The notes under the pieces are model-generated. The model was not told the DNA's origin, searched no databases, and saw only the letters and a list, made by a program, of their open reading frames with translations. Below, one piece after another: positions 23,543-29,421 of a stretch of 64,000 bases of DNA. Origin of the DNA: Candidatus Peribacteria bacterium (lineage in GTDB: Bacteria; Patescibacteriota; Gracilibacteria; UBA1369; 2-02-FULL-48-14); contig CALQZQ010000001.1 in the NCBI GenBank assembly GCA_943349825.1, positions 1 through 64,000 of the forward strand, written 5' to 3'. Position 1 is the first letter of the stretch; the number at the start of each line of letters is the position of its first letter. The translations under genes were made by a program, and so were the position numbers.

Positions 23543-25729
23543 ATGAAAATCACTACCGTTTATTCTTTGGGTCTCGCCTTGAGTTTTCTCAGCTTTTCCT
23601 CGGTTTCTGCTGCCAGTATAGAAAACGGCCTCATCAAAAAAAATGCTTATGAAACCGACTATTTTAGTATTGAGTTTTCGGATTTGATTTTGGACCAGAT
23701 GGATGAGGACGACAACGGGCTCCCGGATATTGTAGATACGATTGCGGAGGCGGCGGAGCACAGTCGCGACGTGGTGATCAACGATTTGAATTATCTGGAT
23801 CCTATGGAGGGTTATGATCGTAAACTCATTGTGGTCTTGGACGATAAAGACACTTATTTGAGTTCTGGAGCGATGGGCATTACGGGCCTTTTGAGCAATG
23901 GAGATCCCTTTGTGGCGATTGATCCTTGGATGGTGGAAAGTGATTTGCAAATCACCATGGGCCATGAGTATTTGCACGCGGTGCAGTTTGGTTATGACGA
24001 CGGTTTTGCTTCTGTGTCTCAGGGGATCAATTGGGCGGAGGCGACGGCCATGTGGGTGGAAGACCTGCAATACGACAGCAACAATGATTATGTGTATTAC
24101 ATCCCTGAATACTTTAACTATGTAGACTATTCTGTTTTTGCTTCGCTTTTGCCGAGTGGCTCACTCTACGAATATGGGTTGAATATTTGGCCCCGTTTTC
24201 TTTCTGAGTATTTTGAAAATGACGTGATTAAGGATATTTGGGAAGCTTATTTTGATTCTTCCACTGACTATGGAGACGACAGAAAACTTTACAATGCGGT
24301 GAATGGTGTGGTGGAGGATCACGATAATGATTTGCGTACGGTTTACCGTGATTTTAGCTTGTGGAATTTGGACCTTTCTCAATACGAGGAGGGAAACAAT
24401 TACCCCGATGTTTATACCTTGGAGGCGGAGACTTCTTCGGACTACCAAGACAACGACACAGCGTTTTCTCCGGCTCTCTTTGGCACAAACTATCTTTATT
24501 TCGACAATAGTGACGAGGACAATACTTTCTATTTTCATCTCTTAAAGCCTGAAGGGATTAGTTTTGCGGTGACCCTTGTTCCTTACGACAACGGTTCGGT
24601 GGATCTTTCTGAGAAAGAATCGCTTATTTTGGAACAGGACGGTGAGATGGATAGTATTTTGGACTTGGGCAGTCTCAAAAATGCTGATGGTGTTTATGCG
24701 GTACTGTCGCCTTTGGACAGTGATTTTGACGGGGATCATGAGAGTGATTTTGACCTGGCTTACTCGTACAAATTTTTTGCTCAATATGGGGATTCGGGCG
24801 AAGACTATAGCGACATGATTTCCTCGAGCACAGTCACCACGGAGACTACCGAGGAAAAAGAAGGAACTTCTGAGAGTTCTGTGCCCCTTTCTGACGATTT
24901 GGTGCTGACGGTGGTGAATTACGATGAAGACTCGGTGAGTTTCTCGTGGAACCGTCTGACGGATTCCGAGATCGATTCTTATGAACTTCGTTATGGTACG
25001 GAAAGTGGAGACTACAGCGATGAGCTGGAAATCGACCATGCTTACACCACGGCTGGCACGGTGTCCGGTTTGAGCGAAGGTGAGAAATACTATTTTGAGC
25101 TCGTGGCTTTGAGCAGCAGTGGAGATTCCGTGGGAAGTCCCAGCTCGGAAGTGAGCGTGACTCCGCAGGAATGGATTTTTACGGATGTGTCCTACTTGGA
25201 TGAACAGTACGACGCCATTGCTTCGCTCACGGATGAGGGTATTTTTGCCGGCTATTCCAATGGATCTTTCAAGCCGGACGACACCATCAACCGTGCTGAA
25301 CTCTTGAAGATTTTGGTGGAAGGACGCGACTTGGATCCTTCGGCGAGTACTTATAAAAATTGTTTCACCGATGTGGGTACCGAATGGTATGCGAAATACG
25401 TGTGTTACGCCAAGGCTGAGGGTTGGGTGACTGGCTACAGCGATGGCAGTTTCCGTCCAGGCAACGCCGTGAACAAAGTGGAAGCCCTCAAGATTTTGTT
25501 CCAAGTCTATGAAGCCGGCTTGCAGGATGGCGCCTCTTCCTCAGCTCTTTCGTATTCCGATTTGAGCCAAACGGCTTGGTATGCCAGCTATGTAGAGAAA
25601 GCTTCTGAACTGGGAATTTTGAGCGAAACACTCGGAGGAACTTTTGCCCCCAGCGCCAGCCGCACCCGTGGCGAAATGGCTGAAGAGCTCTATCGTTACT
25701 TGGTAGTGGAGGAGCTGATTAAGGAGTGA
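23543..25729 (+). CDS. SLH-anchored exported HExxH metalloprotease with fibronectin type III domain
   Basis: A 728-residue exported protein. A signal peptide (about 1-23) is followed by a protease-like domain: DEDDNGLPDIVDTIAEA, then the zinc motif HEYLH (141-145) and a downstream Glu166 in WAEATAMW that suits a third ligand. This arrangement resembles the MXAN_6640-type putative metalloproteases. A fibronectin type III domain (about 451-541) and three SLH modules (about 544-725) follow, so the enzyme should be fixed to the cell wall facing outward. It could process surface proteins or attack host or partner proteins. Calcium-like DEDDNGL is typical of the family N-terminus. It ends immediately before a convergent gene. 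Confidence 0.88.
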   Translation: MKITTVYSLGLALSFLSFSSVSAASIENGLIKKNAYETDYFSIEFSDLILDQMDEDDNGLPDIVDTIAEAAEHSRDVVINDLNYLDPMEGYDRKLIVVLDDKDTYLSSGAMGITGLLSNGDPFVAIDPWMVESDLQITMGHEYLHAVQFGYDDGFASVSQGINWAEATAMWVEDLQYDSNNDYVYYIPEYFNYVDYSVFASLLPSGSLYEYGLNIWPRFLSEYFENDVIKDIWEAYFDSSTDYGDDRKLYNAVNGVVEDHDNDLRTVYRDFSLWNLDLSQYEEGNNYPDVYTLEAETSSDYQDNDTAFSPALFGTNYLYFDNSDEDNTFYFHLLKPEGISFAVTLVPYDNGSVDLSEKESLILEQDGEMDSILDLGSLKNADGVYAVLSPLDSDFDGDHESDFDLAYSYKFFAQYGDSGEDYSDMISSSTVTTETTEEKEGTSESSVPLSDDLVLTVVNYDEDSVSFSWNRLTDSEIDSYELRYGTESGDYSDELEIDHAYTTAGTVSGLSEGEKYYFELVALSSSGDSVGSPSSEVSVTPQEWIFTDVSYLDEQYDAIASLTDEGIFAGYSNGSFKPDDTINRAELLKILVEGRDLDPSASTYKNCFTDVGTEWYAKYVCYAKAEGWVTGYSDGSFRPGNAVNKVEALKILFQVYEAGLQDGASSSALSYSDLSQTAWYASYVEKASELGILSETLGGTFAPSASRTRGEMAEELYRYLVVEELIKE

Positions 25730-26358: not shown

Positions 26359-29300
26359 CTAGTTCGCTCTTTTCTCGCTCCATTCTGCCCACCAGACCAT
26401 GAGTGGGCTGGCGATGAAGATGGAGGAGTAGGTTCCTGCGGAGATTCCTACCACGAGAGCCAAGACGAACATGCGGATGCTGTCGGCTCCGAAGAGCACG
26501 AGCGCCACGATGGTGATCAAGGTACAGACGGAAGTGTTCACGGAACGAGCCATGGTTTGGTTCAGGGCTTTGTTGGTGGTTTCACGCAGGGTTTCGCCAC
26601 TGTCACGGTACTTGAGGTTTTCACGAATACGATCGAATACCACGATGGTGTCGTGAACTGAGAATCCCATCACCGTTAGCAGGGCGGTGATGAAGAGTGC
26701 GTCGATTTCCACGCCGTAGAAGTGGCCGAGGATCACGAAGAATCCAATCACCATGATCACGTCGTGGAGCAGGGCTACGATGGCGGAAACTCCGAAACGC
26801 CAAGCGCTGACTTCACGAGGTAAGCGGCGGAAGGCAAAGGCGATGTAAAGTACAATGAAGACGGAAGTCAGGATTAGAGCCAGCAGAGCCTTGGTTTTGA
26901 GGGTGGCGCCGATGGTTGGTCCAACGGTGGTGAAGCTCACTTCTTCCAGTTTCGGACTGCTGATTTTGAACTGGGCGATGAGTGCGTCGTGCTGTTCTTC
27001 GCTCACGTGTTTGATGCGGATGATGAATTCACCGTTGTCGGCACTCACCACTTGAGGAGTTCCAAAGTCGGCCTCCGTAGCGGTGGCGACGGCGTTGATG
27101 TCATCGGTGACGGTTTGAATCGTGGCGGTTTCATTGTTCAATTTGAGATCCAGCATGGTTCCACCTGTGAAATCGAGACCCAGATTGAGACCGAACACGG
27201 CGATGGCTACGATGGAGATGAGGGCGAGGGATCCGGAAATGGCTCCCCAGATTTTGGACTGCTTCATGATGGGCCACATTTTTGGTGTTTTCTTCACACG
27301 GCTCCAGAGCCAGAGTTTGTCGGCCAGCTTCGTGTCCGAAACGAGGGTGAGCATGGTGCGGGTCAGCATGATGGCGCTGAACATGGAGAGCAAAATACCC
27401 AAGGCCAAGTTGGTGGCGAAACCACGGATGATGGAGGAACCGAAGTAGAACAAAATGGCACAAGTGATGAGAGACGAGAAGTTGGAATCACGGATGGAAT
27501 CCCAAGCACGTTTGAATCCTTCGTCGATGGCTTGGTGCAAGGTGCGGCCTTCTTTCATTTCTTCCTTCATGCGTTCGAAGATCAGCACATTGGCGTCCAC
27601 GGCCATACCGATGGAAAGGATGACTCCGGCGATACCAGCGAGAGTCAGGGTGATTTGGCTGGCGAGTACCATGGAGAGGAAGAAGAGCACGAAACATGCG
27701 ACCAAGAAGGCGATGAATTTTTCACCTCCTGAATCGCGGTTTTTAAGGATGATGTGTACCACGATGGCAAAGACTCCAAGGCTGATCAAGATGGAGAGCC
27801 ACAAGGGCAGCGCTGTTTTGATGATGAAGAGTATGAGGAGGGAATAGATGCCGAGAGCGCCCACGGCGATGAGGCCGGGGAGACGGTAGTAGAGGATCAT
27901 GAATAGAGCGAGTGCGAGGACTCCGATGAGACCTGCGAAGAGGCTTTGGTCGAGGGCTTCTTGGCCGAGGGTGGCGCTGATATTGTGTTGACCGGCAAGG
28001 GTCACAGGAGCGGGAATGGCTCCGGTATTCAGATCACGAGCGAGGGCTTGAGCTTGTTCCAACGTGAAGCTGCCGGAAATCTGAGCTTGGCCTCCGGAGA
28101 TTTGAGCTTGAACGACTGGGGCAGAAATAAGGTCTCCTCCTACGAAGATGGCGATTTTCTTTTGGATGTTGTTTCCCGTCATTTCTTCAAAAAGCTTGGC
28201 ACCTTCTTCATCGAAGGTGATGCTCACGTAAGGTTGGTAGGCGGAATTGAAGGCCACGTCTGCGTGTTTGAAGTTTTTACCGGTGAGGCCGGCTTCTTGT
28301 TTCCATGGGCTGGCGGTTTTGCTCCAGACCACATAGTTGAGAGCAGCTTTTTCTACGGTTTTGTCGGTGCTGCCTGCCTCTACTTTGTCGTAAACCGTGA
28401 TGAGGTGGTAACCGAATTCACTTTCCACGATGTCTGAAGTTTGTCCTACGTCGAGGGCAAAGGAGGCCTCTTCAAACGCCTGAACCATGGCACCTTCTCC
28501 AAAGCTGCCCAAATCGCCCCCTTTGTCTTTGGATCCGGGATCGTCGGAGTACTCGGTAGAGAGGTTTTCAATACTTTCACCGGCATCGATTTTGGCTTTT
28601 ACTTCTTCAATACGAGCAAGCGCTTCTTCTTTGGTTCGAGTGGTAGAGGAGTCTGCATTGGGTGCTTCTGCAAAAGAAACGAGGATGTGGCGAGCGCTGA
28701 CTGTAGCTTCCACTTCAGACGCTTCGATTTCCGTGCTGCGGTCTAGGATTTGGATCATGGCGAAGCCTTTGAATTCGCTCACACCGCCGAAGCTGTCGGC
28801 TGCGTACCCGTCAGAAATTTCTATAGGACCAACAATGTCACCGATTTCTTTCCCGGCAATCGCGTCTTGAATGGTCTGGTCATAAATGCTCAGCTCTTGG
28901 GATTCAATTTGATTGAAATGGATCTGTTCCGCATCGCTGTTTTTGGCTTGATTTCCTAAGATGACGAAATCACCGCCCTCGTTTACTGCTGCGAGGAAAC
29001 TGTTGGCGTCGTCTTTAGCCCAGGCTTCTTGAGCCGCGTTGTCTGGGTTGGGTTCTTCTTCTTTGAACTCGAGTTGGATGGTTTTCCCTACTACGGCTTT
29101 GGCTTCTTCAATATCGCTGATGCCGGCGAGCTCCACTATGATGTGGTATTCGCTGCCTACATTGGAGATGTAGATGCTGGGTTCGGAGACGCCGAGGGTG
29201 TCGACACGGCGGCGGATCACTTCTTTCACGCCCTCCACAATTTGGTCGCGGTCGGCTTGGTCCACGCTGGTGAGGTCGATGGAATAATCGAGTTGAGTGC

Positions 29301-29421
29301 CTCCCTTGAGGTCCAGACCCAAACTGAGTGGGCTGGTCCAATCGAAATAGGAAAGTGTTCCTGCGAAGAGGAGGATGAGCAGGGCTTTAGCGGCCATGGC
29401 TCGTTTGTTGGTCCAGAACAT
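26359..29421 (-). CDS. secDF: SecD-SecF fusion with parvulin-type prolyl isomerase inserted in SecD
   Basis: Uses the proton gradient to help the Sec translocon pull proteins across the membrane. The 1020 residues hold SecD (about 1-700): TM1, LGLDLKGGTQLDY, the P1 domain, then the TM bundle with GIAGVILSIGMAVDANVLIFERMKEE; and SecF (about 735-1020) with its own LGLDFTGGTMLDL and VMGFSVHDTIVVFDRIREN. Between the SecD P1 halves is a complete parvulin/PpiC domain (about 242-346: ARHILVSF, YSDDPGSKDKGGDLGSFGEG, FGYHLI), preceded by what looks like a second, partial parvulin half (about 150-235). Fusion of SecD and SecF is known in some bacteria; the isomerase insertion is unusual and would place a folding catalyst at the exit side of the channel. 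Confidence 0.93.
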   Translation of the reverse strand: MFWTNKRAMAAKALLILLFAGTLSYFDWTSPLSLGLDLKGGTQLDYSIDLTSVDQADRDQIVEGVKEVIRRRVDTLGVSEPSIYISNVGSEYHIIVELAGISDIEEAKAVVGKTIQLEFKEEEPNPDNAAQEAWAKDDANSFLAAVNEGGDFVILGNQAKNSDAEQIHFNQIESQELSIYDQTIQDAIAGKEIGDIVGPIEISDGYAADSFGGVSEFKGFAMIQILDRSTEIEASEVEATVSARHILVSFAEAPNADSSTTRTKEEALARIEEVKAKIDAGESIENLSTEYSDDPGSKDKGGDLGSFGEGAMVQAFEEASFALDVGQTSDIVESEFGYHLITVYDKVEAGSTDKTVEKAALNYVVWSKTASPWKQEAGLTGKNFKHADVAFNSAYQPYVSITFDEEGAKLFEEMTGNNIQKKIAIFVGGDLISAPVVQAQISGGQAQISGSFTLEQAQALARDLNTGAIPAPVTLAGQHNISATLGQEALDQSLFAGLIGVLALALFMILYYRLPGLIAVGALGIYSLLILFIIKTALPLWLSILISLGVFAIVVHIILKNRDSGGEKFIAFLVACFVLFFLSMVLASQITLTLAGIAGVILSIGMAVDANVLIFERMKEEMKEGRTLHQAIDEGFKRAWDSIRDSNFSSLITCAILFYFGSSIIRGFATNLALGILLSMFSAIMLTRTMLTLVSDTKLADKLWLWSRVKKTPKMWPIMKQSKIWGAISGSLALISIVAIAVFGLNLGLDFTGGTMLDLKLNNETATIQTVTDDINAVATATEADFGTPQVVSADNGEFIIRIKHVSEEQHDALIAQFKISSPKLEEVSFTTVGPTIGATLKTKALLALILTSVFIVLYIAFAFRRLPREVSAWRFGVSAIVALLHDVIMVIGFFVILGHFYGVEIDALFITALLTVMGFSVHDTIVVFDRIRENLKYRDSGETLRETTNKALNQTMARSVNTSVCTLITIVALVLFGADSIRMFVLALVVGISAGTYSSIFIASPLMVWWAEWSEKRAN

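Follow-up and report, generated by a model that had tools for sequence, protein, structure and literature searches.

In other bacteria the parvulin folding helper is a separate protein. The case for parvulin chaperones acting at SecDF on a chain still in the translocon has reportedly been built on crosslinking and modelling of E. coli proteins that are separate from one another. SurA of E. coli binds the SecYEG-SecDF-YidC translocon, and in all of the top AlphaFold models its parvulin domains lie on the SecD P1 head (PMC9987972). PpiD, another parvulin protein of this bacterium, contacts the P1 head and has been proposed to hand substrate to SecD (PMC11470409, PMC9643414); according to work cited in PMC9643414, its parvulin domain retains the fold and is inactive. 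PpiD-YfgM and SurA (PMC9643414, PMC11470409, PMC9987972) share with the gene described here a parvulin-containing chaperone placed at the P1 head and at translocating chains, but there the proteins are separate and in contact whereas here a single polypeptide is specified. By analogy the latter looks like a cis, one-chain counterpart of the E. coli SurA/PpiD-SecD contacts.

The window (the whole stretch of DNA analyzed, 64,000 nucleotides) carries a secDF fusion gene of 1020 amino acids (26359–29421, minus strand, as are all of its parts given below) composed of a SecD P1 with a parvulin insert, the SecD membrane part and SecF. Its identification as a SecDF fusion in a sequence-only reading of this DNA is borne out by Pfam and NCBIfam. 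Following TM helix 1 of SecD (residues ~8–26, 29344–29400, from hydropathy) are the P1 base (SecD_1st, residues 63–122, 29056–29235, E 1.4e-16), which ends in the conserved strand KTIQLEF, and, beyond the insert, the P1 head, that is, the substrate-binding, moving subdomain (SecDF_P1_head, residues 373–471, 28009–28305, E 2e-28). The RND-like SecD membrane part (residues ~493–708, 27298–27945; Pfam, NCBIfam and hydropathy) bears the motif GMAVDANVLIFER at residue 605, and the SecF part (residues ~717–1015, 26377–27273; NCBIfam and motifs) bears GLDFTGG at 748 and FSVHDTIVVFDRIREN at 920. These SecD/SecDF parts occur in the expected order, with Rotamase_3 at residues 236–346 between SecD_1st and SecDF_P1_head, and the SecD/SecF C-terminal domains thereafter. 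All of the Pfam matches lie above the curated cut-offs, which excludes chance matches. NCBIfam returned SecDF, SecD and SecF models for the product and PrsA models for the insert itself, while the SurA model PRK10770 matches residues 125–376 and spans both parvulin domains. As a member of the SecDF family, judged by its sequence, the fusion would be expected to pull exported chains at the expense of the proton gradient.

In common with SecDF/SecD proteins (PF21760, PF22599, TIGR01129; Thermus thermophilus 3AQP, 5YHF) the fusion possesses the P1 base and head, GMAVDANVLIFER and the SecF GG motif; it differs in adding two parvulin domains at the base-head hairpin and an extra TM hairpin (residues ~541–589, 27655–27801; alignment and hydropathy). 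The latter, of about 50 residues, sits between TM3 and TM4 of SecD, is not a feature of plain SecDs; it is common to L010, L012, L141, L145 and L183, and is missing in L033, L039, L161, L191 and L195. A neighbor of secDF (23543–25729, plus strand) appears, by reading only, to specify a 728-residue exported protein that has a segment resembling fibronectin III and, at its C terminus, SLH-like repeats.

The insertion, at approximately residues 122–350 (29058–28372), amounts to about 230 extra residues which form the two parvulin domains, and its point of entry is the hairpin between strand KTIQLEF of the P1 base and W..GL.GK.F of the P1 head. In plain SecDs from this phylum the hairpin is some 10–50 residues long (19 in L191). 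The sequence-only reading had delimited the feature as 28384–28974, or residues 150–346, which lies within the insertion and falls short of its full extent. The P1 region including both parvulin domains was modelled with AlphaFold2 (451 residues, pLDDT 88, pTM 0.66); at this pTM the position of the parvulins relative to the P1 head is uncertain. Foldseek matches of this model in the PDB were the P1 of SecDF (3AQO, 5YHF), which was best, together with SurA, PrsA and Pin1. The insert is a SurA-like parvulin tandem within the extracytoplasmic P1 of SecD, its first domain dead and its second intact. At the same SecD hairpin L187 and L194 have an acidic low-complexity insert of about 120 amino acids in place of the parvulin, and in L136 and L151 the P1 head itself is split by some 90–100 extra residues, besides the parvulin insert.

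Domain 2 (residues ~238–348, 28378–28710) is beyond doubt a parvulin, as the sequence-only reading had proposed for the segment between the P1 halves. It is matched by the Pfam families Rotamase_3 (E 2e-29, residues 236–346) and Rotamase (E 7.7e-25, residues 245–343), the motifs ARHILV, YSDDPGSKDKGGDLGSFGEG and FGYHLI are all present, and the corresponding part of the P1 model has Foldseek matches to PrsA, Pin1 and SurA. Among solved structures the parvulin domains of PrsA come nearest in sequence, at about 39% identity and E 3.5e-22, followed by small parvulins, Pin1 and SurA. The active site was compared at nine positions taken from the listing for Pin1, PrsA and Par10 in PMC12524980, and acceptable residues were found at all nine: for Pin1 H59, C113(D), L122, F125 and M130 there are H245, D293/D294, L304, F307 and M312, and for F134, T152, S154 and H157 there are F316, S334, F336 and H339. 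By these equivalences His245 (28687–28689) corresponds to Pin1 His59, one of Asp293-Asp294 (28540–28545) to Cys113 and His339 (28405–28407) to His157. Most bacterial parvulins have Asp at the Cys113 position, and Tyr or Phe occupies the position of F336 in PrsA and Par10 also (PMC12524980).

The equivalents of His245 and His339 are invariant in 36/36 homologs at the order and class levels. A larger set comprised 154 SecD-embedded domains. Of these, 140 have a residue at the position of the first His (Pin1 His59), and it is His in 135; the last His (Pin1 His157) is present in 149/154, Phe316 in 148 and Leu304 in 147 copies. With this fold and active site domain 2 is most likely a prolyl isomerase.

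The sequence-only reading had also suggested an eroded second parvulin ahead of the intact one. The region in question (residues ~115–236, 28714–29079; profile match, structure model and alignment) is a degenerate parvulin, to judge from the following, and begins near residue 115 rather than 150 as had been supposed. In profile-profile comparison with the intact domain 2, segment 112–238, as a profile of 33 homologous segments, gave 95% probability and E 1.9e-8. The profile was also used to search PDB sequences; SurA was best (E 4e-4) and otherwise parvulins only were found. The AlphaFold2 model (48 sequences, pLDDT 84) has its elements in the order strand-helix-helix-strand-helix-strand-(hairpin)-strand, as in parvulin, and its best Foldseek matches in the PDB are to SurA, with a TM score of 0.68 to parvulin domain 1 of that protein (2pv1) at probability 1.00. 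Of the seven best matches, at probability 0.97–1.00, six are chains of SurA and the remaining one is a PpiC-type domain; since their E-values are just 0.005–0.05, the assignment leans on the profile, PDB sequence and structure lines jointly. Alignment shows that the catalytic His pair is gone, with Gln (IQLEF) and Ala (GFAMIQI) instead, that SecD's own strand IQLEF stands in for beta1 of the domain, and that the active site is lost in nearly all aligned relatives. A third parvulin, made up of the ~65 and ~57 amino acids flanking domain 2 in Peribacteria, was considered and is not claimed, the profile probability being just 20–32%.

The sequence-only reading had brought in PrsA of Bacillus for comparison; in layout the insert resembles the SurA tandem at least as much as PrsA. 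Compared with SurA of the diderm periplasm, which also has tandem parvulins and whose parvulin domain 1 is structurally closest to domain 1 of the fusion, the present protein is not soluble and lacks the N- and C-terminal helical chaperone core, its flanks being the SecD P1 base and head. Compared with the Bacillota lipoprotein PrsA, it has neither a lipobox nor the chaperone domain formed by the N and C arms, and the parvulin is part of a motor rather than of a free lipoprotein.

It had been taken as a peculiarity of this cell that the folding catalyst is joined to the motor; the arrangement is instead class-wide. All six genomes of the family have the fusion; in the order 82/89 genomes give a match, almost all over the full parvulin and head, and the fusion is spread over much of the class. 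The scan of the genome collection was seeded with 13 homologs, the full alignment of 36 being too varied. In a sample of 380 genomes of the phylum, parvulin and P1 head occur on one frame in 32 genomes from outside the class, representing about 19 families; most of the other genomes have a plain SecD of 430–500 amino acids. In a second class (that of G423) a contiguous match was found in 85/95 genomes and both parts on one frame in four more, or about 89/95. The design is therefore common to most of the genomes examined in two classes of the phylum, and the survey of homologs found the same insertion with its active-site residues kept. No parvulin match was found in E. coli SecD. Among PLSDB plasmids no match covered 80% of the query, those listed being on the parvulin side or the SecD side only.

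The number of parvulin modules varies. The distance from base to head in SecDs of the second class corresponds to one module (~126–150 residues) or two (~229–244), and in the source class to two (~230–275) or to longer inserts (~345–412). In families f25, f29 and f33 (code 25) the SecD frames are mostly broken by TGA in the standard code and open with TGA as Gly; the insert is shortened and domain 2 is absent. In the SecD of L048 domain 2 is eroded. Domain 2 is consequently dispensable to SecD itself. A SecD tree calculated without the insert requires several changes of module number, while in a tree of parvulin domains (112 columns) most domain-2 copies of both classes group together, with moderate support, apart from most free parvulins; the supported branches of the latter tree are too few to establish one origin. 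The simplest reading of these sequences would be an old shared origin followed by repeated loss and gain of modules.

Several variants deserve mention. L041, L068, L086, L101, L131 and L133 have about 345 amino acids from base to head, with domain 2 between stretches of ~65 and ~57, possibly a split module. In ten single-parvulin SecDs of the second class (L169, L171, L172, L175–L177 and L179–L182) an ARHILI-like His strand is placed after the domain and leads into the P1 head, while SecD's QLEF strand precedes the domain; the His is kept in 8/10, and from their sequences these SecDs look like carriers of a circularly permuted parvulin. Free P1-parvulin paralogs of ~470–545 amino acids, without the motor membrane part, are specified by L044, L045, L155 and a second L043 frame (minus strand), those of L044 (FSGCS) and L155 (LSGCS) with lipoprotein-like signals and that of L043 with a signal-peptide-like start. 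It seems that the SecD-derived chaperone has been released as a free protein more than once.

A search with PF00639 of the genome, which is 98.8% complete, revealed no parvulin besides the SecD-borne one. Among the class members sampled, 35 gave a parvulin match, and in 25 of these, the source genome included, the SecD-borne copy is the sole PpiC parvulin. We considered and rejected the idea that genomes with the fusion generally lack a free parvulin, since in the second class many of them have both. The source genome encodes trigger factor and an FKBP with a lipobox (LLAACG) as well; cyclophilin was not found in it. Judged by sequence, this FKBP lipoprotein gives the cell another exported prolyl isomerase besides the SecD-borne parvulin.

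The reading which we prefer, with a probability of about 0.6, is that of a SecDF motor equipped with a SurA-like parvulin pair, domain 1 binding or positioning the chain and domain 2 isomerizing it during export. Having lost its catalytic residues, domain 1 would most likely be a chain-binding or positioning unit, and domain 2, with a full active site, would most likely isomerize prolyl bonds. The pair presumably adjoins the substrate-binding, proton-driven P1 head at the SecY exit, where it might capture the emerging chain and prevent back-sliding or misfolding, prolines being isomerized by domain 2 while the head of SecDF pulls. The sequence-only reading had suggested that this might suit a cell with many long beta-rich exported proteins. 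Against catalysis during export are the FKBP lipoprotein, which could supply exported prolyl isomerase activity, and those SecDs of the source class in which domain 2 is lost or eroded. Nor is the predicted catalysis at the translocon assured, because the parvulin of PpiD, according to work cited in PMC9643414, has kept the fold and is inactive. For this reason a pure holdase is the main rival: both parvulins would bind the extended chain or a partner (YidC, SecY) as a docking platform, isomerization being irrelevant. PpiD, with its inactive parvulin in a protein contacting SecD (PMC9643414), is a precedent for this, and the loss of the domain 1 active site in nearly all aligned relatives and a copy number of 0 to 2 or more among relatives point the same way. 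Yet in 154 sequences from two classes domain 2 shows strong conservation at its catalytic positions, although elsewhere in the domain identity has fallen to ~40%; mere binding gives no obvious reason for such a pattern, and we regard a holdase as possible but doubtful.

The same conservation bears upon a neutral or structural spacer, captured by chance and tolerated in the P1 hairpin with no role in export. Lineages without the insert are common and the hairpin accepts low-complexity inserts in L187 and L194, as such a spacer would; maintenance of active site and fold over two classes and many families is, however, not expected of it, nor does it agree with the 25 class members of the sample whose sole PpiC parvulin is the insert, so that this explanation is quite improbable. 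That two genes were joined by an annotation or assembly artefact is hardly credible: metagenome-type genomes can be misassembled, but there is no direct sign of this at secDF, and the fusion stands in intact frame in every one of the six family genomes, across the order, and in numerous other families sequenced in independent studies, whose separate assemblies refute an artefact. Going beyond the preferred reading of a motor with one binding and one isomerizing domain, one might envisage a proton-driven foldase in which the swing of the P1 head presents and withdraws the chain, giving one pull-trap-isomerize cycle, and whose P1-parvulin unit has also been freed repeatedly, sometimes as a lipoprotein; this is speculative and, in our estimation, unlikely.

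Both parts belong to known families and their contact in trans is known; the one-chain fusion and its breadth over two classes are the new part. In the open-access literature, to which the search was confined, no paper on a SecD-parvulin fusion was found. Evolution has covalently joined those partners, beside the predicted contact, in the majority of the members sampled from two classes. The fusion lends independent support to the SurA/PpiD-SecD contact and offers a single polypeptide for assaying translocation coupled to folding catalysis. It may also be one answer to how exported proteins are folded in cells without a separate PpiC parvulin.
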